From a virus, in the IMG/VR virus record IMGVR_UViG_3300033149_005403, positions 1 through 34,128 of that record: DNA of 34,128 nt; one strand, 5' to 3'. A program made the position numbers and the translations under genes. The notes beneath the pieces are model-generated. The model was not told the origin of the DNA. It saw nothing but the letters and a program-made list of their open reading frames with translations, and made no database searches. This document shows, piece after piece, positions 5,553 to 30,939 of the stretch. Each line of letters begins with the position of its first letter. The stretch's first letter is position 1.

Positions 5553-7179
5553 TACTCCCTCGTTTTAGAATTTCACTGATTATTTCACGCCGCTCTTGTA
5601 GCGCCGTAAATACCCTCTCATCAACTGTATCACGTGCGATGAGGTGGATGTTGGTTACAGGTAATTTCTGTCCTGGTCGGTGAACTCGGGCTTTTGATTG
5701 CTCGTAATCTCCGAGTGAAAATCCGAGCGAATAATAAATCACATAACTCGCCCGGGATAGATCAATTCCTAATCCTCCAGCCTGAATTTGAACACCCATA
5801 ATCTGGATATTTTCAGGATAGATCGCCTCGCCGTCGATGTCTTTTCTGCGTCCTGATACCTCTCCATATTCGAGGTTGAGATTTTCAGCAACTTCCCTGA
5901 CAGCATCCAGGTCCGCAATGAATCGTGTGAAAACCACAATGTGATGTTTCGTTGTATCAATTCCCTCAATAATATCCCGTAATACATCCTGTTTAGCTGT
6001 GCTGACCTGTAACAATTCATCCTGATCGTCCAATTTGAGAAATCCTGATGTCAATTGCTGGAGTCGTAATAATTTTACGAGTGCATTCGTCGCTGTAATT
6101 AACCCCTCATCTACCTCAGCCCAGAATTGACTCTCCAGTGAATTGTAAACGATTTTAGTTTCCTCATCAAGATAAAAATCTCTAACGGTATCAATTGACG
6201 GCGGTAAATCGAGCACGTCTTCTTTCCGCACCTGAAATGAAATCGAATCAAATTTTGATCGCAGATCGTCCTGATTTTTGAATCTGATCACCTGTTTCTG
6301 ATGAAACCCGCCCATCTCAGCATACTGGCTGCGAAACGCTGTAAATGAAGTTCCAAAAATCCCTTTATCCAGCGCCCGGAACTGTGCATAAATATCCAAT
6401 GGTGAATGCGGCATCGGCGTTCCGGTTAATCCGATTCGATATTTAGCTCGATCCGAGAGCCGTGAGCAGAACCGACTCGCCACACCGCCGGGCGCTTTTA
6501 ATTTATGAATCTCATCATAAACTATGAGATCCCAATTAACCATCAGACACCATTTCGCAAATGGCTGTCTCCACACCGCTTCATAATTGATCACGAATAT
6601 CGACGGTAATTGCCGAGCGGTATTCAACTGATAATTCTGTTGTGCAATTTCCAGCCGTTTCGCTATTTTGGCATTATACAGAATTATCGGTCGGAGATTA
6701 TCAATGGAGTGTTTCGAAAACTCGCGTTTCCAGACATTCAGAACAGATACAGGGGCAACGATCAGAATCATTCTCAATTCCGGATTATTGTTTACCAGGT
6801 CCACAACGATTTTCGATTTACCTGTCCCCATATCCATCGCGAGCAGGCTCGCCGGCTGTCCCTCAGCAAACCAGTAGCCCTGTAGTTGATGTTGCCATGG
6901 AGTGATTTTTGATCTGATTTCATTGAGATTAGATGAATTTATCGCGGTCTGCCGACGAATAATCAATTCAGCGGTATTATGGATTTCATCATCAATCAGA
7001 TCGGTAATTTCAGAAAATTTATCGATGCAGATTTTTGCTGTGGTTGGTGTCAGCGGAAATTCCCACCTGCGCCGCGTTTTATTCCAGCGATGTCCGGGAA
7101 TTGATTTGCAGGTATCCTTTAATTCGTATGGTGTTTCAGCGGCGATTATACCATCACTGATAAATAATTTCGGAATCAT
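5521..7179 (-). CDS. SNF2-family DNA helicase/translocase
   Basis: A 552-residue superfamily 2 protein of the SNF2/Rad54-like group, common in phage replication modules. Visible motifs are Walker A MDMGTGKS (115-122), DEIH (222-225), LTGTP (251-255), AGGLGIDLSRA (467-477) and the SNF2-typical motif VI QSKARVHRPGQ (494-504). The first 90 residues form a separate N-terminal domain with a GHRWNKTRRRWEFP segment that resembles the short HARP-like or annealing-helicase N-termini. It should translocate on double-stranded DNA and may act in recombination or fork restart. GAGGT lies before the ATG, two bases after the HTH gene, so the two are co-transcribed. Confidence 0.93.
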   Translation of the reverse strand: MIPKLFISDGIIAAETPYELKDTCKSIPGHRWNKTRRRWEFPLTPTTAKICIDKFSEITDLIDDEIHNTAELIIRRQTAINSSNLNEIRSKITPWQHQLQGYWFAEGQPASLLAMDMGTGKSKIVVDLVNNNPELRMILIVAPVSVLNVWKREFSKHSIDNLRPIILYNAKIAKRLEIAQQNYQLNTARQLPSIFVINYEAVWRQPFAKWCLMVNWDLIVYDEIHKLKAPGGVASRFCSRLSDRAKYRIGLTGTPMPHSPLDIYAQFRALDKGIFGTSFTAFRSQYAEMGGFHQKQVIRFKNQDDLRSKFDSISFQVRKEDVLDLPPSIDTVRDFYLDEETKIVYNSLESQFWAEVDEGLITATNALVKLLRLQQLTSGFLKLDDQDELLQVSTAKQDVLRDIIEGIDTTKHHIVVFTRFIADLDAVREVAENLNLEYGEVSGRRKDIDGEAIYPENIQIMGVQIQAGGLGIDLSRASYVIYYSLGFSLGDYEQSKARVHRPGQKLPVTNIHLIARDTVDERVFTALQERREIISEILKRGSNGRETTEQTD

Positions 7180-7181
7180 GA

Positions 7182-7484
7182 TTACCTCGAAATTATCCTG
7201 GCTGTTTGTCTGATCTCTCTGGGGATTTTATAAATCCCGGGTGTACCCAGAATCACGATTGCCATTCCGTGTACATCATAGGCGAGATGTGCCCAGTTCT
7301 CTCGAAAATACTCAATCATATTTTGGAGCCGAGCATCCACAATTGATGCGTAACTCCGGTTTTTATCCGGATCACCTCGTCGTGATGTTGCAATATCAAT
7401 TGATGATTTGGAAACCCCAGCGATCTCAGCAATCTGTAAATTACTCAGATTGTATTTTTCGCGAATCTGTTTCAGATTTACCAT
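7182..7484 (-). CDS. HTH (XRE/Cro-like) transcriptional regulator
   Basis: A 100-residue protein with an N-terminal helix-turn-helix at about residues 3-45 (IREKYNLSNLQIAEIAGVSK, then a recognition helix with SSIDIATSRRG). The remaining 50 residues probably serve for dimerisation. It has a strong ribosome site (AGGAGGT, spacing 5-6) and is the only clear DNA-binding regulator in the window, so it is the best candidate to bind the palindromes found at the two duplicated promoters (8426-8441 and 32405-32420), one of which drives its own operon. That link is inference; it could also be a Cro-like or replication control protein. Confidence 0.75.
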   Translation of the reverse strand: MVNLKQIREKYNLSNLQIAEIAGVSKSSIDIATSRRGDPDKNRSYASIVDARLQNMIEYFRENWAHLAYDVHGMAIVILGTPGIYKIPREIRQTARIISR

Positions 7485-7604
7485 GTGGACCTCCTAATAA
7501 AATACAGGGGCGCTATATCTACCTGCTCGGACAGGGGAGAAAACCGAGCGCCTTCAGATGCCTTAGCCGCGCGATGGGCACAGGTGCGCGGTACCCCAAA
7601 CAAT
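7485..7604. other. GC-rich non-coding gap with hairpin
   Basis: This 120-bp gap is richer in GC than the genes around it and contains GCTCGG at 7527 to 7532 pairing with CCGAGC near 7551 across a 13-14-base loop. It ends at the AGGAGGT ribosome site of the HTH gene. I see no ORF with a ribosome site. It may be a structured leader or attenuator controlling the regulator. Confidence 0.35.
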
Positions 7605-7796
7605 TCAATCCTCAACCCAACGGAGAGTAATTCCGTCGATTGTAATACTGATTCCGGTTAACTCCCGCAGTATCTCTCGCAATCGAGAGATACTGAATCC
7701 CTTTTTTTGGATCTGTTTTAATATCACAGGATTCACCTCGATCCATTCAACTCGATTTTCATTGCCCGAATAATTAATGCTTCTCTGGAGTAGCAT
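7605..7796 (-). CDS. Small basic protein, unknown function
   Basis: A 63-residue protein with no recognised family. It contains a helix-rich part (VILKQIQKKGFSISRLREIL) that could be a short helix-turn-helix but is too short to assign. The start at 7796 is preferred because GAGGAG lies four bases upstream; a longer form starting at 7844 would overlap the previous gene by 71 bp. The overlap with the upstream gene from 7796 is 23 bp, which suggests translational coupling. Confidence 0.55.
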   Translation of the reverse strand: MLLQRSINYSGNENRVEWIEVNPVILKQIQKKGFSISRLREILRELTGISITIDGITLRWVED

Positions 7797-8076
7797 GATT
7801 CTCCTCAAAATATTCGGCAGCAGCTTTCGCTCCTGCAATTTCAAATGACAGTAAAAATGTGGCTTGTGCTATATCAGCCATTTGCGCTTCGATATATGCT
7901 TGGCGTGCATCCTCGAGAGCACTGGGAATAGCATTTTTAATTTGCGCCCTCAAATAAATCAGGAACTCATCTGTCAATCTCAACTCAAATCCTCGCGTTT
8001 CACACCAACGGCATGCCCCTGTAACCGCTGTTGAAATCGCAATAGAACCCAATTTATCTAATTCCTGATCGTCCAT
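7774..8076 (-). CDS. Small helical protein, unknown function
   Basis: A 100-residue, mostly alpha-helical, alanine-rich and acidic protein. It has a CRWC pair near residues 22-25 and lacks signal or membrane segments. The ATG follows AGGGAGAGAGACA, nearly the same leader as in front of the genes starting at 8375 and 32356, so these three start regions are related. Function unknown; position in the early operon ahead of the HTH regulator suggests a role early in infection. Confidence 0.55.
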   Translation of the reverse strand: MDDQELDKLGSIAISTAVTGACRWCETRGFELRLTDEFLIYLRAQIKNAIPSALEDARQAYIEAQMADIAQATFLLSFEIAGAKAAAEYFEENHATPEKH

Positions 8077-8168
8077 TGTCTCTCTCCCTGTTTTGAATGT
8101 TATCCCGGGCCTCCCCGGGTTGAGCGCGGGGAGAGAATCGAATTCTCCCCTGCAACCATGCCGCGCTG
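8077..8168. other. GC-rich intergenic region with two hairpins
   Basis: Between two small genes lies a 92-bp stretch much richer in GC than its surroundings. On the plus strand CCCGGG-cctc-CCCGGG (about 8103-8118) forms one stem, and GGGGAGA (about 8128-8134) pairs with TCTCCCC (about 8144-8150) for a second, with AGCGC/GCGCT arms outside on the minus strand. It could be an attenuator, processing site or small RNA. I checked for a tRNA and did not find one. Confidence 0.4.
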
Positions 8169-8375
8169 TTAGCGTGATTTGTTTATGATGCTCCTCATCT
8201 GCTCTTCATATTCGGGGTAGAGGTAATCTATGAGATTATTGGCTGTTGGTGAGGAACGCGCAGAAAATAATGGATGATCATATCCATATTTCCTGACGAA
8301 ACTTTTGGTTAAACTACATGATAAAAAATTATCCTGGAGATTTCTCAGACGGTTACGTTTTTGGGTCATTATCAT
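8169..8375 (-). CDS. Small basic protein, first gene of left operon
   Basis: A 68-residue protein of unknown function. The N-terminus is basic (KRNRLRN), and there is a Tyr/Pro-rich C-terminal half (YLYPEYEEQM). GGGAGAG lies five bases upstream of the ATG at 8375. It is the first gene behind the promoter block at 8381-8491, whose near-copy drives the repeat protein at 31583-32356; the two proteins themselves are not alike. As the first product of the early operon it may be a host takeover or control protein, but that is only inferred from position. Confidence 0.6.
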   Translation of the reverse strand: MIMTQKRNRLRNLQDNFLSCSLTKSFVRKYGYDHPLFSARSSPTANNLIDYLYPEYEEQMRSIINKSR

Positions 8376-8380
8376 TGTTT

Positions 8381-8491
8381 CTCTCCCTTGTTTTGGTTTC
8401 AGTAGATGATCTCACATCTGCTAATTCCAATATATATCGGAAAACCGAAAATGTCAAGCGTTTTGTTATATTTTTATAAAATAATTAAAAT
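8381..8491 (-). repeat. Promoter/leader block, copy A (111 bp)
   Basis: This non-coding block matches 32360-32470 in 106 of 111 positions by my count, in the same orientation. It covers the AT-rich upstream region, the promoter, a 16-bp near-palindrome over the -10 box, a small inverted repeat in the leader (AGATG/CATCT, 8404-8419) and the ribosome site region. The differences lie in single bases and leave both promoter boxes intact. Confidence 0.9.
8429..8457 (-). promoter_or_regulatory. Sigma-70 promoter of the left (early) operon
   Basis: The minus strand has TTGACA (8452-8457), a 17-bp spacer and TATATT (8429-8434), preceded by AT-rich tracts like an UP element. A 16-bp near-palindrome (8426-8441, one mismatched pair) covers the -10 box and is a likely operator. 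It should drive the small gene at 8375 and probably the whole early operon. The late-operon hairpin at 8520-8553 insulates it from upstream transcription. Confidence 0.85.
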
Positions 8492-8519
8492 TTATTTATC
8501 ATTTCCGATTAGAACGAGT

Positions 8520-8553
8520 AAGCGGGGCGGTCCATCATGAAACCGCCCCGCTT
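8520..8553 (-). terminator. Strong hairpin after the late operon
   Basis: A perfect 12-bp inverted repeat, AAGCGGGGCGGT (8520-8531) and its complement (8542-8553), with a 10-base loop. It lies about 140 bp after the endolysin stop and 60 bp before the early promoter. There is no clean T-tract after it on either strand, so it may act as a terminator with help, as an mRNA 3' end stabiliser, or on both strands. Confidence 0.6.
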
Positions 8554-8692: not shown

Positions 8693-9238
8693 TTAGGTAA
8701 TTTCCGCCGATTCAAACGTCCCGCTATGGCGATTTATTACCGAATCGAGCTTCTGTAGGGCATTTCCGGCTTGACGGCGGAATTGATTCATGTCAATGTT
8801 CGGGCAAGTTTTGGAATAATTTCCGCCTCTCAATAATTCATAATGCCCCCGAATACAATTGACACCCCTTAAATGTGGGAATTTCGGATTATGCAGATAA
8901 TTGTGGATTACCGCAATCGCCTGATTGAATTGCCCCTGTGTAAACTGCCTCCGTCCGATCAGACAAATACCGATTGATTCATGGTTATGTCCCCTGACAT
9001 GCGCCCCCTGAAATTTATTGGAACGCCCCCGCCAGAGCCAACCATCAGTCCAAAATAATGGACGTTTATCAATCCAATTTTCGTACGCGGGATAACCGTT
9101 ACCGATTAGATAATGATAGCCGATAGCATCAAATCCCCGATCCAGATGCCATTTCTCAATCAGTTCAAAATCACCATAGTAACTCGCTGAGCAATGAATG
9201 ATGACATATCGAATTCGTGTCGGATCTAACAGCCGCAT
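8693..9238 (-). CDS. Endolysin, N-acetylmuramoyl-L-alanine amidase (Amidase_2)
   Basis: A 181-residue single-domain amidase that should cut the bond between muramic acid and L-alanine in peptidoglycan at lysis. The zinc and catalytic signatures of the T7-lysozyme/Amidase_2 family are visible: IIHCSAS with the metal histidine near residue 15, GYHYLIG (40-46), the region SIGICLIG (88-95), GHYEL (131-135) and KTCPN (143-147) with the likely catalytic Lys and metal Cys. No signal peptide or cell-wall binding domain is present, so export depends on a holin. Its ATG overlaps the TAA of the holin-like gene by one base, giving a typical lysis cassette. Confidence 0.93.
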   Translation of the reverse strand: MRLLDPTRIRYVIIHCSASYYGDFELIEKWHLDRGFDAIGYHYLIGNGYPAYENWIDKRPLFWTDGWLWRGRSNKFQGAHVRGHNHESIGICLIGRRQFTQGQFNQAIAVIHNYLHNPKFPHLRGVNCIRGHYELLRGGNYSKTCPNIDMNQFRRQAGNALQKLDSVINRHSGTFESAEIT

Positions 9239-9483
9239 TATTTGAATTTTCCGAATGGAATTTTTTCAATCACATTGCCGGCTACAATTGCGAGCGCGAT
9301 GAACATGTAAATCGTGAAAAAATTCTCGAGTAGTCCGATGATCATCTCGGTCTGTCGCCCGAACACAACCGATCCGATAAATGCAGCCAATAATCCGGTC
9401 AACACCAGTAAATATGCGAATTTCCGCCCACCAATCCGATTGATACTGGTTATCTGTTTACCGTTTGTCTCTCGTGATTCCAT
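9238..9483 (-). CDS. Holin candidate (two membrane segments)
   Basis: An 81-residue protein with two hydrophobic segments at about residues 22-43 and 52-70, separated by a short loop with a charged TEM patch, and a basic N-terminal tail. Size, topology and position right in front of the endolysin fit a class II-type holin, the pore former that lets the amidase reach the cell wall. The last bases overlap the endolysin start. No family-specific motif is recognisable, so the call rests on topology and context. Confidence 0.7.
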   Translation of the reverse strand: MESRETNGKQITSINRIGGRKFAYLLVLTGLLAAFIGSVVFGRQTEMIIGLLENFFTIYMFIALAIVAGNVIEKIPFGKFK

Positions 9484-9485
9484 GA

Positions 9486-9833
9486 TTACTCTGCTCTATT
9501 CAATGTCATTACAGTCATTGAAATTAATAGATCAATTGCTCTACTCAGCAGCAATCCATCAAACGGCTCAGCCCAGAATGGCAGTTTAACCGCATCATCG
9601 AGTTTATCAACCAGGTGATATTTCTGATCAAAATGATCAAATGCTTCCCGGACGACCTTGTGTTTGAGTTTACCTGCATCAGCAATGTTAATGAACTTCT
9701 CAGCCATGGAAATCAACACGTAAATCAATTTGAGCGCGGTCTCAGCCGTGATTTTACCATCCTCCCGGAAATCACTCCACGTCTCAACGATTTTTTCAAC
9801 CGCATTGATCAATAATTTTGTTAAATCGTTCAT
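9486..9833 (-). CDS. Helical phage protein in the lysis cassette
   Basis: A 115-residue protein, helical throughout, with REDGKITAETALKLIYVLI near residues 23-41, a pattern seen in small phage proteins near lysis genes. The region around residues 32-45 is hydrophobic enough to associate with membrane but not a clear membrane segment. The start at 9833 has GGAGAG about five bases upstream; a start at 9845 would lie inside the upstream gene. It sits between the coiled-coil membrane protein and the holin candidate and is probably part of the lysis or virion-associated set. Confidence 0.55.
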   Translation of the reverse strand: MNDLTKLLINAVEKIVETWSDFREDGKITAETALKLIYVLISMAEKFINIADAGKLKHKVVREAFDHFDQKYHLVDKLDDAVKLPFWAEPFDGLLLSRAIDLLISMTVMTLNRAE

Positions 9834-9834
9834 G

Positions 9835-10218
9835 TTACTCTCCATCGAGTTTTGTTTTCATCTGGATGATCAACCGCATGATCTCATCCTGATTTTTTGT
9901 AAATTCCCTGAATTGAATTTTCTGTTCGTTTTTGAACTCCTTGAAATTAGTTTTCAACTCCCTAATATCATCGATTACATTTTCGAGCCGCGCTTTATCT
10001 GGAATATAAGGCGATTCCCGCTGAATTTTCGCCGACACTTCCTCTCGGCTGATAATTTTTTCCTCAATTACCTGATTGACATCATCATGTGTAACCACAT
10101 TTTTCAGTGTGTCTGATGCATTGGCAAACCACCAACTGCCGATACCGAAAATCAATATCATGAATACTCCCACGATGGCCTCGAGAATCCAGACCTTGGT
10201 CCCATTACTTTTCTGCAT
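9835..10218 (-). CDS. Membrane-anchored coiled-coil protein, spanin-like
   Basis: A 127-residue protein with an N-terminal membrane segment at about residues 10-31 (ILEAIVGVFMILIFGIGSWW) and then a long, charged region rich in Lys, Glu and Ile that should form a coiled coil (about 40-125). This layout, N-in membrane anchor plus periplasmic coiled coil, is that of inner-membrane spanins, which act in the last step of lysis of Gram-negative hosts. No Rz1-like lipoprotein gene is nested in it that I could find. GGAG lies before the ATG. A structural or holin-associated role cannot be excluded. Confidence 0.55.
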   Translation of the reverse strand: MQKSNGTKVWILEAIVGVFMILIFGIGSWWFANASDTLKNVVTHDDVNQVIEEKIISREEVSAKIQRESPYIPDKARLENVIDDIRELKTNFKEFKNEQKIQFREFTKNQDEIMRLIIQMKTKLDGE

Positions 10219-10247: not shown

Positions 10248-10790
10248 TTAAATTCGTAATTCAATCCCAACCTCTCCGCGATAGTATTCATCGCTGTTAT
10301 CCCTGAAATAGTGCCCTTCGATGTATGGTCTGATTTTTTTGTCATCACCTAAAAACCTCAATCGTGTCTCTGCATCCCATATATGTGTCCGATTAAAATC
10401 CGTCGTCCAGGTCACCGATCCATCCCCAGGAAGCGGCGCACTAAACCTCACCGCCCAATCCGGATGGCTGTATTCATGCGCAACTGCCGTAAATCCGGCG
10501 CTGAAAAAATTATCAAAATCCCGCATTACCCCCATCATCTGTCTATTGATGCCCTTGCTGTCGATAACCTCCGTACTATATGCTAACCGGTATCTGCCGC
10601 TCAGTCCACGCTCGCCGTAACCGGAATAATTGAGATAATACGCGCCGTCCTCACGTTCCCATTCCAGCGAATATCCGTGCATTGCATACATCGCGCCGGC
10701 TCGCAACAGATAATCAAACGGCTGATTCGTCTCGTATGCTGGTCGAATCGATACCGACAATGCCAGAGATATGGGTATAAGCCAGTTCAT
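10248..10790 (-). CDS. Small outer-membrane beta-barrel-like protein
   Basis: A 180-residue protein with a short hydrophobic N-terminus (MNWLIPISLALSVSIRPAYE) that may be a signal peptide, followed by alternating polar/aromatic strands such as YSLEWERED, YYLNYSGYGERGLSGRYRLAYS, WAVRFSAP and a final strand ending in VGIELRI. This fits an 8-stranded barrel like OmpX or the phage lambda Lom protein. The last residue is Ile instead of the usual Phe/Trp. It lies between tail-fibre-linked genes and the lysis cassette, and a promoter precedes it, so it could be expressed in a lysogen and change the cell surface, for instance to exclude other phages. That role is inference. Confidence 0.55.
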   Translation of the reverse strand: MNWLIPISLALSVSIRPAYETNQPFDYLLRAGAMYAMHGYSLEWEREDGAYYLNYSGYGERGLSGRYRLAYSTEVIDSKGINRQMMGVMRDFDNFFSAGFTAVAHEYSHPDWAVRFSAPLPGDGSVTWTTDFNRTHIWDAETRLRFLGDDKKIRPYIEGHYFRDNSDEYYRGEVGIELRI

Positions 10791-10816
10791 TATTTAATTA
10801 TTATCATATAGTTACA

Positions 10817-10845
10817 ATTATATTTGGGAGAATAATTGGGTTTAA
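10817..10845 (-). promoter_or_regulatory. Possible promoter for the outer-membrane-like gene
   Basis: The minus strand reads TTAAAC (10840-10845), 17 bp and TATAAT (10817-10822) in the 73-bp gap between the LRR frame and the barrel-like gene. The -10 box is perfect, the -35 box matches in three of six positions. Independent transcription would fit an accessory (moron-like) gene inside the late operon. No ribosome site is visible before the ATG at 10790. Confidence 0.45.
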
Positions 10846-10863
10846 TTCCTTGTAACTCGCCAT

Positions 10864-12021
10864 TTATTCATCAACATAAAATTCTGCATACGTTCCATTC
10901 GCCGTACATGCCGAATCAATATATGTTGTATCCGCTAATCCCGCAGCAGACGGCGGAGCGTTTCCTCTCAATCGGAATTTAATCCAATGGGTTGGCGTTA
11001 CATCGCCTTCCTCAATCAGCAATCGATAATCATGTAATATCAAATCCACTTCGGCCTGGCTCATTCCACAACTGTCGAAATAAACCCAGTAACAAACTGG
11101 TGATAAAAATCTGTCGGTAACGCTGACCGCTGTAGAATCCAACTGATATTCGTACACTATATCGCAATTTGACAGCTTTGCCAGATCATCATCAACGCCG
11201 GTATGATGACAATTGATAACATTGATCGTCGCAGCGCAGCTATCAAATACCCCCACACTTCCATAAGCTCCCGTGTGTTCTAATTCGATCACAGTCAAAC
11301 ACGGCATATAACCACATACAACTATATCACCATACGACCTACTGCCTCCCAAATTAAGGTGTGTTAATTTTGTCAGCAATTCAAGAGAAGCAAGATCGAT
11401 GGTTACCGAATCCCCTACAGCTGTCAAATCCGTCAGGTTTGTCAATGAATCAACATCATCACCGGTTAGTTTCAGATTCGCACCTAACCCCCCAACACCC
11501 AGTATCGTTAAATCCGAAAACTGTTTGAATACACTCCCGTCTCCATATCCCGAATCACTCGCGATTGAAAAAACATATAAATCCGGCGACCAGTTTTCGA
11601 CTACTGATACATTTCCATACGCATCTGATCCCTCCCTCATCCAATCAAAATATTTCATGTGATTCCATGAGTAGAGGCTATCAAAGATCATTGTGATTTT
11701 AGAATAGTATCCTTTTATTTTTTCGAGTGATGTCAACGAATTTAGCTTCCATCCATCCCCTGTGATATTTGTATTATTATTTGCTGAGCCACAAATGTAT
11801 AATGTTTTGAGTGAATCCAGATCAAGCAATGAATCAACAGGAATAGCCATATATTGATAATTCAATAAGAGCACAGTTAAATTGGGAAATAAAGTTGACC
11901 ATTTAATCGATTTACCATTAAATGGATTATCGGAAATATCAATCCGTGTTACACCCGTAAATCCATCCGTTGAGCTGACAGTTATAATACCATCACCTCC
12001 CCCTAATGTGTGTGACGGCAA
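10864..12021 (-). CDS. Leucine-rich repeat protein frame
   Basis: A 385-residue frame with many LRR-type units of about 20-25 residues, for example LFPNLTVLLLNYQYM, SLTNLTDLTAVGDSV, LLTKLTHLNLGGSR and MPCLTVIELEHTGAYG. LRR folds serve as protein or glycan binding surfaces. The frame has no ATG near its start; TTG at 12021 lacks a ribosome site. The frame stays open upstream to 12078 and meets the preceding signal-peptide gene, which ends at 12068, within 11 bases in the +1 frame. I therefore think both are parts of one secreted protein, separated by a frameshift (real or sequencing). Aspartate-rich, no cysteine pattern of a phage fibre. Confidence 0.75.
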   Translation of the reverse strand: MPSHTLGGGDGIITVSSTDGFTGVTRIDISDNPFNGKSIKWSTLFPNLTVLLLNYQYMAIPVDSLLDLDSLKTLYICGSANNNTNITGDGWKLNSLTSLEKIKGYYSKITMIFDSLYSWNHMKYFDWMREGSDAYGNVSVVENWSPDLYVFSIASDSGYGDGSVFKQFSDLTILGVGGLGANLKLTGDDVDSLTNLTDLTAVGDSVTIDLASLELLTKLTHLNLGGSRSYGDIVVCGYMPCLTVIELEHTGAYGSVGVFDSCAATINVINCHHTGVDDDLAKLSNCDIVYEYQLDSTAVSVTDRFLSPVCYWVYFDSCGMSQAEVDLILHDYRLLIEEGDVTPTHWIKFRLRGNAPPSAAGLADTTYIDSACTANGTYAEFYVDE

Positions 12022-12067
12022 ATCATTCTGAACATAAACTGAATCGTCTATCTGCCATCGGAGCGTA

Positions 12068-12340
12068 TCACCTAAATGTCATCAGCAGAATAAAATCGCA
12101 TACTGTTTTTGTCTGGCTGAATGTATCATGGAGATATGTGCCCGCGTCTAATCTATCATGTAATTCATTCCGCAGGGTATAGCCTAAATAACCATGTTGA
12201 TTTTCATAGCTCGCAACCATTGCCCATGCCCAGCCCCCCTTACATTTTCGGCATCGCCATATATTACGCTCTCCATCAGCGACAGAACCAGCAATGAGCA
12301 TTAATACGAAAACAACCAGTAACCAACGAAATTTCACCAT
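12068..12340 (-). CDS. Signal-peptide protein, likely N-terminus of the LRR protein
   Basis: A 90-residue frame with a textbook signal peptide: MVKFRW, a hydrophobic core at about 7-17 and a cleavage site after GSVA near residue 22. The mature part starts with a CRKC pair (about 30-33) and a tryptophan-rich patch, and the frame stops right where the LRR frame opens one base further. It overlaps the LamG-like gene by 7 bp, so it is translated in the late operon. If the two frames are joined, the product is a secreted protein of roughly 490 residues. Alternatively it is a short secreted protein of its own. Confidence 0.6.
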   Translation of the reverse strand: MVKFRWLLVVFVLMLIAGSVADGERNIWRCRKCKGGWAWAMVASYENQHGYLGYTLRNELHDRLDAGTYLHDTFSQTKTVCDFILLMTFR

Positions 12341-13143
12341 GAGAGTCCATATCGGGATTTAACATAACCCTCCAACGCCAGACGATCAGCCTCAGAAATA
12401 GCCCCATTATGAATACCCAACTCAGCAATTTTTATCGATGCCGGTTGTGTTTTCGTACTTGAAAACAATCGAACATAAAATATTGCTGCATCCCCCCCAG
12501 TCTGGTAATTAGTTTGCTTTGTGCCATTCCAATAAAAATCATCAGAGCTCTGATCCAGAAAAGCCAACCCCTCAGTACCGGCAGCTGGAAGATTTTGAAT
12601 ACATAATAATACTCCGGTTTTAATCTCCCATCGATGATATGCTCCTCCATAATTGGCAAAAATACCCCGACTGGTAGAATAAACAGAAAACACAACATTC
12701 GTCGCATCATTATCCGCTGGTACTGTACAGACAATCCATATCGACCAGGGGCTCACTATATTATCAATGTCACAGTAAAGATAATCATCAACGCCGTCCC
12801 CCTCAAGCGCATCCTGCCCTCCTATTCCATTTGCGCCATGCACATAAGCTGGATATGTCGTGTCGCCCAGCGTAGCCGATAACACCTCGCCGCCGATTAT
12901 GTCCGTACAAGCAATTACGCTGTCACTCCCTGCCGATGTTTCAGTAACCAGCGAATCCGCCCGCCACCAGTGCACTATATTGGACATTTCGACAGGTGAC
13001 CATGATTCACGACATTGAAATATCTCAACCAATCCGCTATTAGGTCGTTTGATCTGTCCATGCGGACGCTCAAATTGTCCATATTGACCGGTTGTCAGAA
13101 AAGCAATCATCAACAAAAATACAAACAACCTCAATGAACGCAT
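12334..13143 (-). CDS. Secreted LamG-like (concanavalin A-fold) protein
   Basis: A 269-residue protein with a signal peptide (MRSLRLFVFLLMIAFLTTG) and then a lectin-like jelly-roll domain. Typical LamG marks are VHWWRADSL with an aspartate-rich follow-up, the ALEGDGVDDYLYC strand, the WEIKTG region and the C-terminal motif ISEADRLALEGYVKSRYGLSW-like ending, which I recognise as the end of such domains. The start at 13143 has GGAGG five bases upstream and overlaps the previous gene by 13 bp. LamG domains bind glycans or proteins; in phages they occur in tail fibres, but the signal peptide is unusual for a virion protein. Role unknown. Confidence 0.75.
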   Translation of the reverse strand: MRSLRLFVFLLMIAFLTTGQYGQFERPHGQIKRPNSGLVEIFQCRESWSPVEMSNIVHWWRADSLVTETSAGSDSVIACTDIIGGEVLSATLGDTTYPAYVHGANGIGGQDALEGDGVDDYLYCDIDNIVSPWSIWIVCTVPADNDATNVVFSVYSTSRGIFANYGGAYHRWEIKTGVLLCIQNLPAAGTEGLAFLDQSSDDFYWNGTKQTNYQTGGDAAIFYVRLFSSTKTQPASIKIAELGIHNGAISEADRLALEGYVKSRYGLSW

Positions 13144-13841
13144 ACTAACCTCCACCGAACAACCGGCGTTTCCAACATTGTATTCACGCTGTTGATTGTA
13201 AATGATGCGTATGCCGCTCCCGGAGGAACACGAACAATAAAAATATACCATCGTTTGATCGGTGAATTTGCTAATACATCAGCAGGGAAACAATCATTCC
13301 AAACCCAGTTTCCGTAAAAATCCTCGTCGCTGTATTGATCGTCCTCGATTACGATATTCGTGCTGTCTGCAATCCACGCATCGTATGACGAATCAATATC
13401 CATCTGATCCATCGCGAATGTAACCATGATCGTTGGATCGATCCCGCAACTGTCCGCATCGCAATATCCTCCATATGATGTATCCGCATACGAAAACGTA
13501 GTCGTATCCTGCATAATCCACAATGCGAAATATCGAGGTGATAAATACGCTAATCGATCATTGCCGGTATAGGTTTTACCGTCCAGTTTAGAATCCATAC
13601 TCGTCTGATCAGACCATGCAAGCTGCAAATCATCGATCTGGATCAGCGAATCGAATCCAACTGAATCTACATATGCTGCCGGGGCAATCGTATCCTGCCC
13701 TGAATAGTAGAAATATACATGTTCGCCTCCCAGCAGCCGCGCCTCGCGCAGTATGTCAAATCGATCATATACTGTTGGCGTTTCAGCGAATATCGCTCCT
13801 GCTATCAACAGTATCGCTGTTAAAATTGTCAGAAATCGCAT
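13131..13841 (-). CDS. Secreted protein of unknown function
   Basis: A 236-residue protein with a clear signal peptide (MRFLTILTAILLIAGAIFA, cleavage after IFA near residue 19). The mature part is rich in Asp, Ser, Tyr and Trp, with a short CDADSCGIDP segment, and looks beta-rich. I do not recognise a domain. TAGGAG lies before the ATG, eight bases after the stop of the fibre-like gene, so it belongs to the same late transcript. It is the first of three genes in a row with signal peptides. It may act on or at the cell envelope rather than in the virion. Confidence 0.65.
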   Translation of the reverse strand: MRFLTILTAILLIAGAIFAETPTVYDRFDILREARLLGGEHVYFYYSGQDTIAPAAYVDSVGFDSLIQIDDLQLAWSDQTSMDSKLDGKTYTGNDRLAYLSPRYFALWIMQDTTTFSYADTSYGGYCDADSCGIDPTIMVTFAMDQMDIDSSYDAWIADSTNIVIEDDQYSDEDFYGNWVWNDCFPADVLANSPIKRWYIFIVRVPPGAAYASFTINSVNTMLETPVVRWRLVCVH

Positions 13842-13849
13842 TTTTACTC

Positions 13850-15394
13850 CTAAATTACGGGTATATTTGTTAACGTATCAATGTACACGTTACTCTCGAT
13901 ATTCGAGGAATACGAGGTGGATTTTACATTTTGCTGATACAGACGCAGGTAATAAACAACCCCTGCTGTTAAACCACTCTCGATGTTGAGTTGAATCTCC
14001 TGCGGTGTTGTCGGATATGTTCCGTAGGTATCATGATCAATCAGGAACGATTGAGATTTTATAACCGTACCAGAACGATCCTGAATTTCGGCAATTAAAT
14101 ACGCATCATCACCAGAAGCCAATCCTGATTTTCCGAAAAATGAAATCCGGATCGCCTTGTTTTCATCTCGATGACGATAGGAAGTCGAGAGTTTTAATAT
14201 CTTCGATGAACTCGAATCCTGTGTCCATTCCGTTACTGCTGCGGCAGCATTTCCTGTTGCACCCCCAGCAATCGTCAGGTGACCCGGTTGCGTCAAATCC
14301 GCTGCCCTGATGAGTTCACCATCGCTATCACGACGATCACCAGGTACAACTGGACGTGCAAAATCCTGAGCAGATACGTATTGATTTATCGGGGAATCCC
14401 AGTCAAATGCGACAGCAATCACATAGAGAGGATGCCGTGTATTGAGCATATACCAGTTTCCTGTCCCACCATCAATCCGCACCTGCCCCTCAGCCTGACC
14501 GCGTAGGCGGGCTAAATCCGTATCGCTAATCGTACCGGCACTGAGCCACTCAAACGAACTCCGTGACCAATAAACCTCATATCGTCGAACAGCATCCTCA
14601 TTTGCAGTGCTCTCCATGAAAAAATTTATCCTGATCAGGTAAAATCCATAATCAGGTGTGGTCGCGAGGCAATGCACTGTCGGTGATGAAAACGCATCAC
14701 TCCGCTCTAATGCTGTGAGACGAGTATCGAGCGCGTCTGTAATTGATTTCGGAACTGCACCATCAGAATCAACAGGTTCAGCAATCCCTGTGAGATAAAC
14801 CGCCGCTGCTGCATCATTTAATAACTCCAGATCATTACAGGTGATTTTTAATGTCCGATCAACAGTTTTCGCTGCATTCATTACTTTCATTTCAACTGTC
14901 GATGCATCACTGCTTTTTATATGTAAAACGCTGTCTGCCGCTGACGGTTTTATCCCGACCGGCGATAAATTTGTATTATCTTTTAGTGCGGTTCCCGGGA
15001 TGTCCTGAAGCGTGTTATCATCACCATCAATGGTTTTATTCGTCAATGTCTGCGAATCACTCGTTCCTACAACATCACCTGTAATTCCATGGACCGCTGT
15101 AGCCGCCTCATGGGTTTCTCGTCCAATCGCCTCCCGTAATGAGCCAAATTCAATTTTATTGACGACCTCGGCAGAATTGTCCCAGATTGAATAGAGTGAT
15201 GTTGGATCATATTGTGCTAAATCAGGATTATCGGATATAAGCGAATCGTCAAATTCAAAATAATATGCGTTGGCATCTGCATCCCATACGCCCACTACGT
15301 TTTTTGCATGCCCTGCACCATGCGAGGTAATCCCCATTTCAACAGTATATGCTGATTGTGATGCTCGCGCCCACCATTTACGAACGAGTGCCAT
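13850..15394 (-). CDS. Tail fibre-like protein
   Basis: A 514-residue protein with an N-terminal part of about 90 residues, then a fibre-type segment with HGITGDVVGTSDSQTLTNKT near residues 102-121, a motif frequent in phage tail fibres and spikes, a shaft-like region with many Asp/Thr/Ala residues and a C-terminal beta-rich domain (about 250-514). It probably forms or joins the receptor-binding part of the tail. GAGGAG stands before the ATG. The neighbours are tail tip genes upstream and secreted proteins downstream. Which part binds the host cannot be told. Confidence 0.7.
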   Translation of the reverse strand: MALVRKWWARASQSAYTVEMGITSHGAGHAKNVVGVWDADANAYYFEFDDSLISDNPDLAQYDPTSLYSIWDNSAEVVNKIEFGSLREAIGRETHEAATAVHGITGDVVGTSDSQTLTNKTIDGDDNTLQDIPGTALKDNTNLSPVGIKPSAADSVLHIKSSDASTVEMKVMNAAKTVDRTLKITCNDLELLNDAAAAVYLTGIAEPVDSDGAVPKSITDALDTRLTALERSDAFSSPTVHCLATTPDYGFYLIRINFFMESTANEDAVRRYEVYWSRSSFEWLSAGTISDTDLARLRGQAEGQVRIDGGTGNWYMLNTRHPLYVIAVAFDWDSPINQYVSAQDFARPVVPGDRRDSDGELIRAADLTQPGHLTIAGGATGNAAAAVTEWTQDSSSSKILKLSTSYRHRDENKAIRISFFGKSGLASGDDAYLIAEIQDRSGTVIKSQSFLIDHDTYGTYPTTPQEIQLNIESGLTAGVVYYLRLYQQNVKSTSYSSNIESNVYIDTLTNIPVI

Positions 15395-15404
15395 ATTTTA
15401 CTCC

Positions 15405-16127
15405 TCAAAATACAAGCGGATGAAACTCTCCAGCCGCCGATGCTTTTGGAATAGATGAGAGTAATTCCTCTCCAATAAATCGAATTTCAACATCATGTCC
15501 AATAAACAAATCACCAGTATAAGCCGACCTGACTGCCTCTGGACAGGTCATAATGAATTTCATGGCAATATCATTATGAGGTTGCACCTCAACACGTCCC
15601 GCGATTGTATGATTGATTATTATCAATAAATCCAGCATATCCGTACGACTCAAATTCGACCATTTGAATGTAACGATTGGACGATAACCCTCATGGCGCT
15701 GTCGTACTGTTCCATCTGACAGAGTTACCGATATAGCTCCGCCGTCAGTTCTCTCTGGAATAAATTCCAATTGCGTATCGACGCAATCAGGAAGCGTAAT
15801 TATTCGTCCATCATTCAAATCAACGTTACGCCAAATTTCACCGCCTAAATCCGACGCCTCGAGAAAATTACTCGTTAATACGATTTTTGCAGCATCAACT
15901 GATGCCACAACATAACACTTATTCCCCACCTGCGCATTTGATACTTGCTGATCAGCTCCTAAATTAGAGCGGAGATCAACCGTTGTCGCAACCTCGTTCG
16001 ACCCGTTGACCCAGTTACCCGTGCCGGGCAGCTGAATTTTATTATACCGAAAATCCGCTCCTGCCCCAGGTAACAGAGCAAATGCAGGTGGACCCGTTCC
16101 CCAAATTAGTGTTTCTGGATAACTCAT
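15405..16127 (-). CDS. Tail tip/distal tail protein
   Basis: A 240-residue protein. Residues about 20-95 (from LPGTGNWVNGS to KIVLTSNF) resemble a beta module also present in the neighbouring hub protein and common in phage tail proteins. The rest, with WSNLSRTDMLDLLIIINHT and IGHDVEIRFIGEE, is beta-rich and looks like distal tail proteins that join hub and tube. No enzyme motif. The ATG overlaps the hub stop by TGATG. The call is from position between hub and fibre and from fold-like pattern. Confidence 0.6.
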   Translation of the reverse strand: MSYPETLIWGTGPPAFALLPGAGADFRYNKIQLPGTGNWVNGSNEVATTVDLRSNLGADQQVSNAQVGNKCYVVASVDAAKIVLTSNFLEASDLGGEIWRNVDLNDGRIITLPDCVDTQLEFIPERTDGGAISVTLSDGTVRQRHEGYRPIVTFKWSNLSRTDMLDLLIIINHTIAGRVEVQPHNDIAMKFIMTCPEAVRSAYTGDLFIGHDVEIRFIGEELLSSIPKASAAGEFHPLVF

Positions 16128-18301
16128 CAGTCAAATGGATTTGGATAAAGGTGATCATCATGTCCCGATTGAAGCGTCAACTGGAGATAATCCTTGCCAT
16201 AAACAATCTGACGCACAATTTTTTCAGAAATAATAACATTGTGAATTATAATTCTATCAAATATCCGGATATTCCAATGCTCATCAACATCCGGATCACA
16301 ATTCAGAACAACAATATCCTGTTTTTCGAGGTAATAACTGTCAGCATAAAAACGACTCAGCACATCGTTGAATCCCTCATTATCAATTATCCGACTATCC
16401 ACCCGGGGGGGATCGTCCCCTTTATGATCTGTTATGGTTAATTCCGGCATCCCCAATAAATTTCGTCGATCCAGAATAACAGAATTGCCCGAATATCCAC
16501 GATGTACGAGATAAATTCGCTTTTTACCATCAGAATCGCATTCCACATAGAGAATCGAATTCGTCAACAAACAAATTTCACGGAGAATCTGTCCTGCGGT
16601 TTTATCCCTAAAATCAAATGATATGGTTGTAATATCAATCAATCCGGCATAAAACAATACACCAGTAATTAGATAGTATCGTCCTTCAAGCCACGCCAGC
16701 TCCTGTGAATTAGCTCGTCCTGCCGACAGGGACAAATAATCCCTGAATACGAAATCTCTATATATTCCAATTCGCTGAACCCGTCCTGCAGGATCCTGGT
16801 AACTCGTTGTCAAAATTATTTTCGTTGATTGAACCTCAGCTATCATGTAATAAAATCTTCGCTCGAATCCACTCGTTGCTGGTCTAACAACGTCTCCTGC
16901 CTCCAGATAATTCCGCAAATCTATAGATGTCATAACATCTGTAGATCCCGGCGTCCATGTTCCTACTCCCGGTAATTGATATGGCACTCCTGTATAATCA
17001 TAATCTGGTAATTCAATTGATTTCCAAATCGATCTACTCGGAATGTTGTCTAATACACGATACCAATCAAATCGTTGTTCTGCCGCAGCCCCCCAGGCAT
17101 GATTGATTATGTCGCGGTTTTTCAGATCAACGGCAAACCATTCAGCAATACTGCATCTACCATACAGAATGATCGGTGACCGCCGCGTCATCTGATGCTC
17201 CTCAATCCATGACCATAATTGATAAACAATTATGATATTTTCATCATCAATCACCTGTTGTTTTCTATACCGATATATCCGATCATTTCGTATCCAGTAC
17301 TCACCTCTGTTATCGTTGTCATCAAATTTTGCATTTAAGGTGCGACGTAATCCGCCGTGCTCTCGTTCCTCGCGTAGGGCATCCAGATCAATATCGCAAT
17401 TTAATTCAATTGAATCTCCACAATCATAGGTGTTTTCAATGATCCGTATTTCTGCTGTATCACCCGCCGCGTTCCAACCAATATGACAGGGTTTTAATTC
17501 ACCATCGATCTGTTTCATAAATACATCATTGTCGCTATAATTTTTATCAATAATGCGTAAATTAGAATATCGGCTGATCGTTCCCGGGGAATAGATGAGT
17601 TCATAATTCCCATATTCCAGATTCAACTGCCTAACAACGTCTCTCGCAATATCAGATAGATTGATCTGTCGCATCAGGCTGTCACTATTCCTCCATCGAT
17701 ACACTCCCCATTGAACCTCTTCATAGGCATCCTGATCGTTTTCCGGTTGAAAGGGCAATCCACGTGAATCGTATAAATATACCTCATCATAACCGAGACG
17801 GTCTGCAGGTGTCAGGGTCGGATAAATATGCTCCCAGATAACCTGCAACCAGTCCTCCTGTATTTCCTCGTCGTTTACTATACGCGGTATTTGGAGTCGT
17901 TTCAAATATCGCAATCCTGAAACGCTCTCCATTTCACCATCAGCATTAACCACATTACCGCGTTTCCCGATCTTCAAATCCTTCAGCTCCTGTGAATAGC
18001 TCAAAACACGAAATCTGAGTAGTTCATTTTCATAATTCCATGATTGCTCACGATCTACGAAACCACGAAATATCTCGGTCTGCTGACTCCCGCCTTTAAT
18101 CCTGACAATATCACCGCGGACTATTTCCATATCACCACCGGGACGAAAATAACCATCCCTGTCGAAAATCAGGAGCTGTGCATACGATGATACGAAATTA
18201 AATAACGTGTCCTGCTCAACCTCAATCACAACTAACGGATCGTCGCCCTGAATCCAAACGAGTTCATGCCACTCGTCGTTTTTATATATCTCGGCAATCA
18301 A
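16127..18301 (-). CDS. Tail hub/baseplate-type protein
   Basis: A 724-residue protein directly after the tape measure, the usual place of the tail hub. The N-terminus has the strands and the phrase EIVRGDIVRIKGGSQQTEIFRGFVD-like pattern found in hub and late-control-D-like proteins; the C-terminal 200 residues repeat such elements (TAGQILREICLLTN, DRIIIHNVIISEK). Residues about 440-520 hold the LPGVGTWTPGS module shared with the next gene. The start is TTG, overlapping the tape measure TGA, since no ATG is near. It should form the ring that closes the tail tube and contacts the tape measure. No peptidoglycan hydrolase motif seen. Confidence 0.65.
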   Translation of the reverse strand: MIAEIYKNDEWHELVWIQGDDPLVVIEVEQDTLFNFVSSYAQLLIFDRDGYFRPGGDMEIVRGDIVRIKGGSQQTEIFRGFVDREQSWNYENELLRFRVLSYSQELKDLKIGKRGNVVNADGEMESVSGLRYLKRLQIPRIVNDEEIQEDWLQVIWEHIYPTLTPADRLGYDEVYLYDSRGLPFQPENDQDAYEEVQWGVYRWRNSDSLMRQINLSDIARDVVRQLNLEYGNYELIYSPGTISRYSNLRIIDKNYSDNDVFMKQIDGELKPCHIGWNAAGDTAEIRIIENTYDCGDSIELNCDIDLDALREEREHGGLRRTLNAKFDDNDNRGEYWIRNDRIYRYRKQQVIDDENIIIVYQLWSWIEEHQMTRRSPIILYGRCSIAEWFAVDLKNRDIINHAWGAAAEQRFDWYRVLDNIPSRSIWKSIELPDYDYTGVPYQLPGVGTWTPGSTDVMTSIDLRNYLEAGDVVRPATSGFERRFYYMIAEVQSTKIILTTSYQDPAGRVQRIGIYRDFVFRDYLSLSAGRANSQELAWLEGRYYLITGVLFYAGLIDITTISFDFRDKTAGQILREICLLTNSILYVECDSDGKKRIYLVHRGYSGNSVILDRRNLLGMPELTITDHKGDDPPRVDSRIIDNEGFNDVLSRFYADSYYLEKQDIVVLNCDPDVDEHWNIRIFDRIIIHNVIISEKIVRQIVYGKDYLQLTLQSGHDDHLYPNPFD

Positions 18302-20106
18302 TATGCACGCCGATTATTGAACTGTTCAACTGTCCGTAAATAACTCGAAATCTGAACACTATCAATCATTACCGTTACATCACCTCCACCACTACGCCCG
18401 GCTAATGATGTTCCGCTACTCACTCCCGGTGCAGAAAAAGGTAATACCGATCCGAGTGCACCGCTAATACCTCCAACACCGAATATAGATGATAGGATTT
18501 TCGCTGATAATGCTTCCGCCGCCATCCGCCGGAGCGTATAGAGGAATGAGTCCAACATTCCCTTCAATCCCTTATCAAACGGATCGAACAGAAAATCAGC
18601 AAAAGCATCCTGGATATTCCGAGCAGCTTGCTCGGCATATTCATTCATTTTATCAGTAGCTTCCTCCATCGTGTCTGCCATCTCATCCGTCGAATCTATT
18701 ATCTCATCTATTGAATCTGCTGTCTCACCATATATATCCTTTAGCCTTGCTAATTCACGCTGATATATCTCATCTGTCATCAAGCCGCCACTTTTTGCCA
18801 TGACTTCATTTAGATGGGCAATACCAAGCGCTAACCTCTCAGCATTGGTTAAATTTCTCTCCCAGATTTGATACCATTGAGATAATGCCGTTGTATCAAT
18901 ATCTAATTCCAGTATATCGACTGGAAGAATCGGTCTGGGTGGTATTTTATCTATTGTTTTAGCAATATCATCAATATTCTGCTTTACAGGTCTTAATACA
19001 GCATCGAATTCTCCTACACTCGAGGTCATATCGCTTGCAACTACTGCTAATTGTCCAAATGTTCCTGCGCCTTTATTTAATATATCATTTAATTCCTTCT
19101 GTAAATCGGCAACGCTCTTCGATGATTCTCCTATCGCTGCTGAAAAATCTAATACCTCTTCACCATTTAGATTGACTGTAAATTTATTCAGCGGATCCTG
19201 ATATGATTTAATTAGTATAAAATACTCCTCCATTATATCATTTAATTTCTGCACCCTTGTTTCTGATTCGCCTAATATATTATTGAATAATTCAAACACT
19301 CCAGTTAATGTTTCAACTGCAGGAGCACCGATCCATAAAAACAAATGCCCTATTTTTTCTAAAACGTCACCATATTCATTCATTAATGCCTGTGTTCGCC
19401 CCCCAAATGTATCACGTGCTGCCCGCGCTGCCCCCCCCATCTCCTTTTCAAATTCCCTTAAAATCATTTTCTGCGCATCGAGGGTACGACCGGTCATTAC
19501 CAGATTTTTTATCAATTCCTTCTGCTGTTGTGTGAATTGAACTCCCGCCCGCGAAAGTGCAGTGATCCCCAAAATCGGATCATTTAATGCTTTTCCGAGC
19601 ATGAGTGCAGATGATTTCAAATCCTGACCTAAAACAGTACTCATATTAAGGGCAGCTTCAACTGCTCCGGGTAATACATCATGTCCGATATTTGTAAAAG
19701 TCAACAGGATTCCCTGAAGCGATAATACAGCCTCATCTCCATAGGTTGTGACTTTTTGAAATCCTGCAGCCATTTCTCTCAATTCACGCGATGTCATACC
19801 CGCTGCAAATCCTGTTGAACGAACGCGAGCTTCAATCTGACGTTGAGCTGCTTCCTGCTCAATGAATGCCTTGGTCGTAGAACTCACTACTCGTGTAATC
19901 GCATAAAAAGTCGCTGCCATCGTAAATTTGAACAGCAGACTTGCATTACGAATACGCGCAATAGTCATTCGCACTTTTTCCAATGATTTCGTCATTCCAC
20001 TCGAAGAGACTCGAATTTTCCCTTGAGCATCTTTCAAATTACGGACAAATTTGTCCATAGAAAGCTCGAGTTTGAATTTCGCCTTTCCGAGTTCCTGTTC
20101 AGGCAT
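18298..20106 (-). CDS. Tape measure protein
   Basis: A 602-residue tail length protein. The N-terminal 100 residues are basic and helical (LSMDKFVRNLKDAQGKIR), followed by the conserved segment with MTSRELREMAAGFQ, GDEAVLSLQGILLTFTNIG and LGKALNDPILGITALSRAG (about 103-210), typical of phage tape measures, then a hydrophobic region near 255-275 and long helices. The C-terminus is glycine/serine-rich. At about 1.5 angstrom per residue it suggests a tail of roughly 90 nm, typical for a siphovirus. It has a perfect AGGAGG site, and its start overlaps the chaperone frame end by 8 bp. Confidence 0.93.
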   Translation of the reverse strand: MPEQELGKAKFKLELSMDKFVRNLKDAQGKIRVSSSGMTKSLEKVRMTIARIRNASLLFKFTMAATFYAITRVVSSTTKAFIEQEAAQRQIEARVRSTGFAAGMTSRELREMAAGFQKVTTYGDEAVLSLQGILLTFTNIGHDVLPGAVEAALNMSTVLGQDLKSSALMLGKALNDPILGITALSRAGVQFTQQQKELIKNLVMTGRTLDAQKMILREFEKEMGGAARAARDTFGGRTQALMNEYGDVLEKIGHLFLWIGAPAVETLTGVFELFNNILGESETRVQKLNDIMEEYFILIKSYQDPLNKFTVNLNGEEVLDFSAAIGESSKSVADLQKELNDILNKGAGTFGQLAVVASDMTSSVGEFDAVLRPVKQNIDDIAKTIDKIPPRPILPVDILELDIDTTALSQWYQIWERNLTNAERLALGIAHLNEVMAKSGGLMTDEIYQRELARLKDIYGETADSIDEIIDSTDEMADTMEEATDKMNEYAEQAARNIQDAFADFLFDPFDKGLKGMLDSFLYTLRRMAAEALSAKILSSIFGVGGISGALGSVLPFSAPGVSSGTSLAGRSGGGDVTVMIDSVQISSYLRTVEQFNNRRAY

Positions 20107-29222: not shown

Positions 29223-30485
29223 TTACGCAAGCCAGAACTCTCCGTCCTCTTCAACCAGCATTAATTCTGTGAATGCCCATACCCGGGCATCCATCCGGTC
29301 AGGTGATTTAGGGTCCCCCTGAACATAGGTACAACACTGATCCTCGCATTCCCCGAATATGCCGACCTGGTGCAGGAGTCCCTGTTCATCCAGCGATGCA
29401 ATCGGTTCAGCCCGCACCATTTTCCCGCGTGAGGCGTGAACTAGCTTAACCTTAACTGTAGAATTAACCGTGTGGATTGTGTGTTCGATCATCTCTCCGC
29501 CGTTATTTGCCTCAGCTATGATCGCATCTGCCCGCAATATCTGGTATACGTTAACCGCTTTCTGCGCCCAGCCGGCGGGACTCTCCTGACAACTCAGATC
29601 CGCCAGCATATAACCATGATTGTCAACTCCTCGTCCAGCAACCACGATTCCTGTTTCATCTGAATCGTCATTCGAGCTTGCCGCAGGATCGATTGCAACT
29701 ACAATTCGCACTAAATCAGGATGTTTGCTGACCCGATTTTTATCAAACGTTGATCGTTTCCATAATGCCCCTTCGATGTCTTCGAGGATTTCCGCATTCA
29801 ATTCCTGACGCCCTAAACGTGTCCCCTCGTATTTTTTGATGATGCGGTCTGCAAATGACGGCGCCAGATTATCAATGTTGTCATACGTGGTCATGCGAGT
29901 CATAATGGTTAAATCATCATCTATCAGATTTTTCAGCAGTTTTATAGGACGTGGAGTAGTCGTTATACAAATTCGCGGATTCATTCCCGATCTCAATCCG
30001 AACTGCAGATTGTCCCAGGTCTCCTGGGGATATTTCCAGTAACAGAGCTCATCACACCAAGCCGCCTCGTGCTGTGGACCGCGGAGCGAATCGGGCTCTT
30101 CAGCAGAATACAGATGTGCAATCGCACCATTTCCGAATTCAATTCGGGATTTCGACGGTATATATCGGGGTTCATAACCGGATTTCCAATTCAACGATAA
30201 TATCCCTGCGCGCCCTTGTGGCGGTGGCAGATCAACCATAACATCTCTCACATCTGCTGCTGTCCGTCCTACAAATGCGAAAACGCCATAAACATTATTC
30301 TCAATACAGGATCGAATCCATTCAGCACCAGTTCGAGTTTTACCGCCGCCGCGTCCTCCAATCGCTAACCAGTAAACCCAATCACCATCCGGCGGCAATT
30401 GATTTTGACGCGCCACCAGATTCCATCGCCGCTGAATCTCATGCCAGACCAGATTAGCCATCTGTCGCGTATCAGGAGCTGCCAT
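29223..30485 (-). CDS. Terminase large subunit (TerL)
   Basis: A 420-residue packaging motor. The ATPase part shows Walker A GGRGGGKT (about 43-50), Walker B AAWCDE (about 141-146) and the coupling motif TTTPRP (about 175-180). The nuclease part shows VVAIDPAAS with the first metal aspartate (about 266), a second acidic residue in IIAEANNGGE (about 325) and SPDRMDA (about 394-400). It cuts concatemers and pumps DNA into the prohead. The start is taken at ATG 30485; a TTG at 30497 gives four more residues. It overlaps the small subunit by 14 bp. Confidence 0.95.
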   Translation of the reverse strand: MAAPDTRQMANLVWHEIQRRWNLVARQNQLPPDGDWVYWLAIGGRGGGKTRTGAEWIRSCIENNVYGVFAFVGRTAADVRDVMVDLPPPQGRAGILSLNWKSGYEPRYIPSKSRIEFGNGAIAHLYSAEEPDSLRGPQHEAAWCDELCYWKYPQETWDNLQFGLRSGMNPRICITTTPRPIKLLKNLIDDDLTIMTRMTTYDNIDNLAPSFADRIIKKYEGTRLGRQELNAEILEDIEGALWKRSTFDKNRVSKHPDLVRIVVAIDPAASSNDDSDETGIVVAGRGVDNHGYMLADLSCQESPAGWAQKAVNVYQILRADAIIAEANNGGEMIEHTIHTVNSTVKVKLVHASRGKMVRAEPIASLDEQGLLHQVGIFGECEDQCCTYVQGDPKSPDRMDARVWAFTELMLVEEDGEFWLA

Positions 30486-30939
30486 GTTCGGACTCAATTT
30501 TAGACATCAGTTTCCGGTACATTTTCAATAAATCCTCATCGCTCAGGTTCGAATATGGACTATCGCCGGCAGGATTTGTCGGCGCGACTTTGACCGGCGA
30601 ATCCAATCCGAGCAGTTTTGCCCGTCGATCCATAATTCGTAATAATTTATCAACGAGTTCGATCTCGCCCTCGTCGAGCACTCGATCCCAGCAGAGCCGC
30701 TGAAGATGATCGAGCCGATGCAACTCGAGCTCCCGAACCTCGAGGGCTGGCTCGGTTGTTATACGTTCAATCGCGCGCTTGATTGCATGATATGCTCCTG
30801 ACCGGCCCTTAAAACCACATTCCCGCGCAATGTAATTGAGGTCATATCCCGCTTTCCGAAGCTCCAAGGCTTTTGCCTCACGTTCCGACTGCGCAATTTT
30901 TCGTTTCGATGTTTTCTGATTACCTCTTCTTACTGCCAT
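30472..30939 (-). CDS. Terminase small subunit (TerS)-like protein
   Basis: A 155-residue protein in front of TerL. It has a basic N-terminus, a helix-turn-helix (LRKAGYDLNYIARECGFKGR, about 28-47) and a central helical part with RLDHLQRLCWDRVLDEGEIE for ring formation, then a Ser/Gly-rich tail. This layout fits small terminases that recognise packaging sites. No strong ribosome site is seen. The overlap with TerL supports translational coupling. Confidence 0.85.
   Translation of the reverse strand: MAVRRGNQKTSKRKIAQSEREAKALELRKAGYDLNYIARECGFKGRSGAYHAIKRAIERITTEPALEVRELELHRLDHLQRLCWDRVLDEGEIELVDKLLRIMDRRAKLLGLDSPVKVAPTNPAGDSPYSNLSDEDLLKMYRKLMSKIESEHGSS

Follow-up and report, generated by a model that had tools for sequence, protein, structure and literature searches.

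Three predicted exported proteins encoded beside a fibre-like tail gene in the late region of an uncultured siphovirus

Phages T5 and BF23 encode, next to the gene for their receptor-binding protein, the lipoprotein Llp, a receptor blocker that contains a disulfide in its complex with FhuA and that in T5 is thought to shield progeny from debris (PMC9586334, PMC4728585). The Cor proteins of phi80/mEp167-type phages and of T1 relatives are exported, block FhuA and exclude superinfection (PMC9311878), and are small lipoproteins (PMC9586334). In the literature on signal-peptide cassettes beside fibre genes, we found only these Llp/Cor-type precedents. Lambda Lom and Bor are outer-membrane proteins from the late region of a siphovirus, with Lom encoded near the tail host-specificity gene; they are known from lysogenic conversion by this temperate phage.

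The window analysed here is a stretch of 34,128 bases, a virus record that represents an uncultured tailed phage, a siphovirus, with all recognised genes on one strand. Its late genes follow the order terminase (29223-30497), portal (26700-28802), protease, capsid, connectors, tape measure (18298-20106), two tail proteins (16127-18301 and 15405-16127), a fibre-like gene, the cassette described below, and lysis genes. The isolates searched are only distantly related to this phage, whose portal shares 28.7% identity with that of Geobacillus phage GBK2; a portal-based genome search returned four remote loci and no host, and a search for relatives of the 724-residue tail protein (16127-18301) gave no match. 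The two tail proteins have a 69-residue domain in common (39% identity, E = 7e-10), an internal duplication in the tail module. Directly upstream of the cassette, the fibre-like gene (13850-15394, minus strand, 514 amino acids) has matches to fibre-type proteins confined to residues ~90-140, and we infer that its product is the receptor binder. Downstream of the cassette lies a lysis module (8693-10218, minus strand) that ends with an amidase (8693-9238; Amidase_2, 4.5e-10, and phrog_822); a holin-like gene (9238-9483), a further member (9486-9845) and a protein with a single transmembrane (TM) segment (9835-10218) were assigned to it by weak similarity, TM content and gene order. A strong hairpin 3' of the amidase gene (8520-8553, minus strand) was read directly from the sequence, the automated scan having missed it because no T run follows. 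A promoter-like TTGACA/TATATA pair follows the hairpin (the two span 8431-8553) where the late unit gives way to the downstream one, both units on the minus strand, and hairpin and pair together likely mark the end of the late unit.

The original prediction of three successive genes with Sec signal peptides was borne out by P1 (13131-13841), P2 (12334-13143) and P3 (12068-12340), all on the minus strand. Using a home-made Sec-signal scorer, we obtained scores of 9.0, 8.7 and 11.7, respectively, and the N-termini (MRFLTILTAILLIAGAIFA, MRSLRLFVFLLMIAFLTTGQ and MVKFRWLLVVFVLMLIAGSVA) have full n-, h- and c-regions of the type-I-like Sec kind, with a positive n-region, a hydrophobic core and, ahead of the cleavage site, small residues. 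No TM segment follows in any of the three proteins, and none of the hydrophobic cores ends with a lipobox Cys. Strong ribosome-binding sites stand before P1 and P2 (TTAGGAGTAAAAATG and GGTGGAGGTTAGTATG; TTAGGAG and GGAGG, respectively), and because of the latter site the start of P2 was placed at 13143 and not at 13251. Misread N-termini of the cassette genes are ruled out by the positions of these sites. The proposed coupling to the tail fibre gene by short gaps or overlaps also held, with an 8-nt gap between the fibre-like gene and P1, a 13-nt overlap between P1 and P2, and a 7-nt overlap between P2 and P3, in which the P3 start overlaps the P2 stop.

Elsewhere in the window, Sec scores did not exceed 3.1, with the sole exception of the single-TM protein of the lysis module (7.1). 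In the comparison loci, which are mostly remote phage contigs and so give a general rather than a matched background, 9 of the 1123 genes (0.8%) scored 8.5 or above, and no locus had three in a row; when 25 further viral contigs were scored in the same way, no signal peptides turned up close to their fibre-related genes. Two side observations come from other contigs. At L033 (16569-17563), two overlapping predicted-exported genes after the tail/lysis region encode a lipoprotein and an outer-membrane protein with a weak, sub-threshold similarity to PagL (Pfam PagL, E = 0.019), and the viral contig L059 (4787-5350) encodes a signal-peptide protein with a ClpP-like look and, by eye, a YIDSPGG motif.

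Cysteine content points in the same direction as the signal peptides. Outside these peptides, P1-P3 and the LRR part that follows P3 contain 21 Cys in 937 residues (2.2%), whereas head and tail proteins together have 30 in 4874 (0.6%; odds ratio 3.7, p = 1.6e-5). Cys-rich proteins also occur among the small replication-side products of the window. An oxidising compartment is where Cys-rich folds are expected, and the enrichment thus fits folding outside the cytoplasm, as supportive evidence and not as proof. Given the start sites, the signal-peptide architecture and this enrichment, P1-P3 are very probably exported, and it is this part of the earlier proposal of envelope-acting or surface-displayed products that is well supported.

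The signal-peptide gene that had been described as continued by LRRs is P3. The LRR part (10864-12072, minus strand), an LRR solenoid with a C-terminal domain, is real, but its frame is +1 relative to that of P3 and its match to Pfam LRR_4 (PF12799; E = 0.022, 15.5 bits) falls under the cut-off of 27; by eye it consists of about ten repeats of ~24 residues. The codon-usage score follows the P3 frame up to the P3 stop and then the LRR frame at once, with no gap (12068-12072), and the LRR frame is open from that stop onward and lacks a good start codon of its own. On the simplest reading, P3 and the LRR part are probably one gene of ~490 residues (signal peptide, N-terminal part, LRRs and C-terminal domain) with one frame change. 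The break may reflect an assembly error, decay, or +1 frameshifting at TTT-AGG-TGA, a candidate +1 site at the junction (12060-12080). Over its C-terminal ~55 residues the LRR part is 42-43% identical to an LRR-like protein of viral contig L098, which is encoded within a structural gene cluster and has no signal peptide. No LRR relatives were found in 50,697 phage records.

For P1, a signal peptide followed by a 216-residue secreted domain to which no fold was assigned, no family, phage or PDB relative was found. P2 had no Pfam match and no relatives in the 50,697 phage records, a PDB sequence search gave no matches, and P1 and P2 as single-protein queries found no relatives in IMG/VR. P2 does align with a domain at the C-terminus of a protein from viral contig L097 (4174-5517, 447 residues; BLASTP 5e-8). 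This protein adjoins terminase and portal genes, has no signal peptide, and matches the virion structural family phrog_10356 through this domain (5e-16); among all ORFs of the loci then fetched, phrog_10356 had one further match, from the window (5e-4). A second match of the L097 domain is gp37 of Erythrobacter phage ZS04 (L101), which is annotated as virion structural, lies between tail genes and endolysin, has no signal peptide and is low in Cys; compared directly, P2 and gp37 are only weakly similar (E = 0.007). The L097 and L098 relatives were found with degenerate motif queries, composed of the window protein and meaningless filler rows varying at motif positions, chosen partly after the LamG and LRR families, and matches were judged solely by tblastn/BLASTP against the window protein. 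A model of P2 built with one relative (pLDDT 44, pTM 0.50) served as support only: the best viral Foldseek matches of this low-confidence model were LamG/concanavalin-like phage proteins (E = 3e-4), and its matches to PDB structures were not significant. These alignments and model matches support the earlier call of P2 as a LamG/ConA-like, lectin-type domain behind a signal peptide. In ZS04 (5935-8202) and vB_EliS_R6L (L102, 2944-5211), a LamG-type domain and an annotated D-alanyl-D-alanine carboxypeptidase region occur in one protein, located between tail genes and endolysin.

A P2 profile run against 297 genomes of one phylum gave a single match, a bacterial surface-type protein in which the P2 domain is followed by surface-type repeats. 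Since P2- and LRR-type modules occur in virion, structural-cluster and bacterial surface-type proteins, they appear to serve both virions and cell surfaces. Plain tail-protein homologues with misread N-termini had been named in advance as evidence against export, and the first half of this was found: the viral P2 and LRR relatives lack signal peptides and are structural or structure-linked (ZS04 gp37 by annotation, the L097 protein by its PHROG match, the L098 protein by its gene cluster). The N-termini in the window, however, are not misread, and we therefore read the cassette as phage adhesin modules with export signals rather than as unrelated envelope genes. No relative of the cassette as a whole was found, and hence no conservation of the signal peptides was seen.

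The last gene of the region, BAR (10248-10790, minus strand), had been described as barrel-like. Its alternating C-terminal strand, EVGIELRI, agrees with this, but the excess of amphipathic strands has p = 0.08, there is no proper signal peptide (score -1.2), and an AlphaFold model made without relatives was unusable (pLDDT 38). BAR contains no Cys and had no relatives in the 50,697 phage records. A small outer-membrane barrel is thus only suggested, and remains unproven.

Exported phage proteins beside a host-recognition gene are, in view of Llp and Cor, an already known kind. Like Llp, P1-P3 are encoded directly beside a host-recognition gene, P1 lying 8 nt from the presumed receptor-binder gene. 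Llp is one small lipoprotein and is reported as early, whereas P1-P3 are three larger proteins with LamG and LRR modules, no lipobox and a place in the late unit; we know of no sequence relation between them. Cor proteins are exported FhuA blockers, and P1-P3 are predicted to be exported but have neither a lipobox nor similarity to Cor. Lacking the lipobox, P1-P3 are not members of the Llp/Cor family, although they may act in a similar way. Within the cassette region BAR alone could resemble Lom. P2 has the same domain type as phrog_10356, ZS04 gp37 and the L097 protein, and shares with gp37 the genomic slot between tail and lysis genes; unlike these virion relatives, which have no signal peptide and little Cys, P2 is a stand-alone domain with a predicted export signal. 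What is new here is that the probably exported proteins beside the host-recognition gene are three in number and consist of tail-adhesin-type modules.

A site beside the fibre gene, binding-type folds and export signals together fit action on the outer envelope late in infection. By analogy with T5 Llp and Cor, receptor or glycan masking is the leading, though unproven, function. Three co-transcribed late genes would deliver their products through the host Sec pathway. Of these products, one carries a LamG/ConA-like lectin fold and one an LRR solenoid, adhesin-type modules such as occur in structural or structure-linked proteins of other phages. Late in infection the proteins would arrive in the periplasm and acquire disulfides as they fold; they would then reach or attach to the cell envelope or surface and occupy the glycan or protein recognised by the neighbouring fibre. 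Neither superinfecting phage nor newly released progeny would then adhere to the infected cell or to its debris. If the host has an outer membrane, BAR or lysis itself might provide the route across it. Several findings weigh against masking: P1-P3 differ from Llp and Cor in having neither a lipobox nor an obvious anchor, they belong to a late unit while Llp is described as early-expressed, the viral relatives of P2 and the LRR part are virion or virion-cluster proteins, and no relative of the whole cassette was found. We hold the explanation as a whole only tentatively, at somewhat short of an even chance. A more specific and unlikely version is that tail-adhesin modules have been turned into a secreted late cassette, a soluble lectin and LRR coat that would shield the host surface or released progeny as a multi-protein, non-lipoprotein counterpart of Llp and Cor.

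P1-P3 could instead be accessory proteins of the tail or baseplate, whose hydrophobic N-termini would act in assembly or membrane contact, or which would be exported and then dock on released virions after lysis. The structural or structure-linked relatives, one of them in the same slot after tail genes, agree with such a role, as do hydrophobic N-termini in some tail-module proteins of the comparison loci (for example L002 14033-14263, score 6.8). Those relatives have no signal peptides, however, and three consecutive proteins with full n-, h- and c-regions and raised Cys are unlike the virion proteins of the window; we regard a virion role as rather unlikely, at about one chance in four. The location of P1-P3 before the lysis genes, in one unit with them, and the lack of a recognised classical outer-membrane spanin lipoprotein in the window would suit proteins that are exported to weaken or bind the outer envelope together with the holin, TM protein and amidase. 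This is improbable, as LamG and LRR are binding folds and not known lysis folds, and the match of P3 to an Rz-like spanin (phrog_17598, E = 0.37) is noise from its hydrophobic N-terminus.

The cassette could also be moron-like cargo with an effect on the surface of a host that survives or is lysogenic, for instance in adhesion, in the style of lambda Lom. The P2 domain in a bacterial surface-type protein and exported envelope proteins on other phage contigs, such as the PagL-like one of L033, speak for such cargo. For expression in a lysogen, as originally suggested, a small HTH regulator (7182-7484) is the sole support, and the proteins scanned yielded no integrase. Across the cassette region, promoter-like matches are no more numerous than chance, and late expression agrees with the translational overlap that links the region to the fibre gene, which leaves the cargo reading with a small probability. 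Decay, or recent acquisition of an insert that is functionless now, would account for the change of frame between P3 and the LRR part, with coding signal before and after it, but a single assembly error or +1 shift does so equally well, P1 and P2 are intact with strong ribosome-binding sites, and the base composition of the cassette resembles that of the rest of the phage; we consider a functionless insert very unlikely.

Judged by their domains alone, genes of this kind risk being mis-annotated as tail proteins. If P1-P3 are exported and mask the receptor, the joining of a tail module to a signal peptide would be a general phage route to an exclusion factor, and signal-peptide genes beside fibres could be screened for exclusion.
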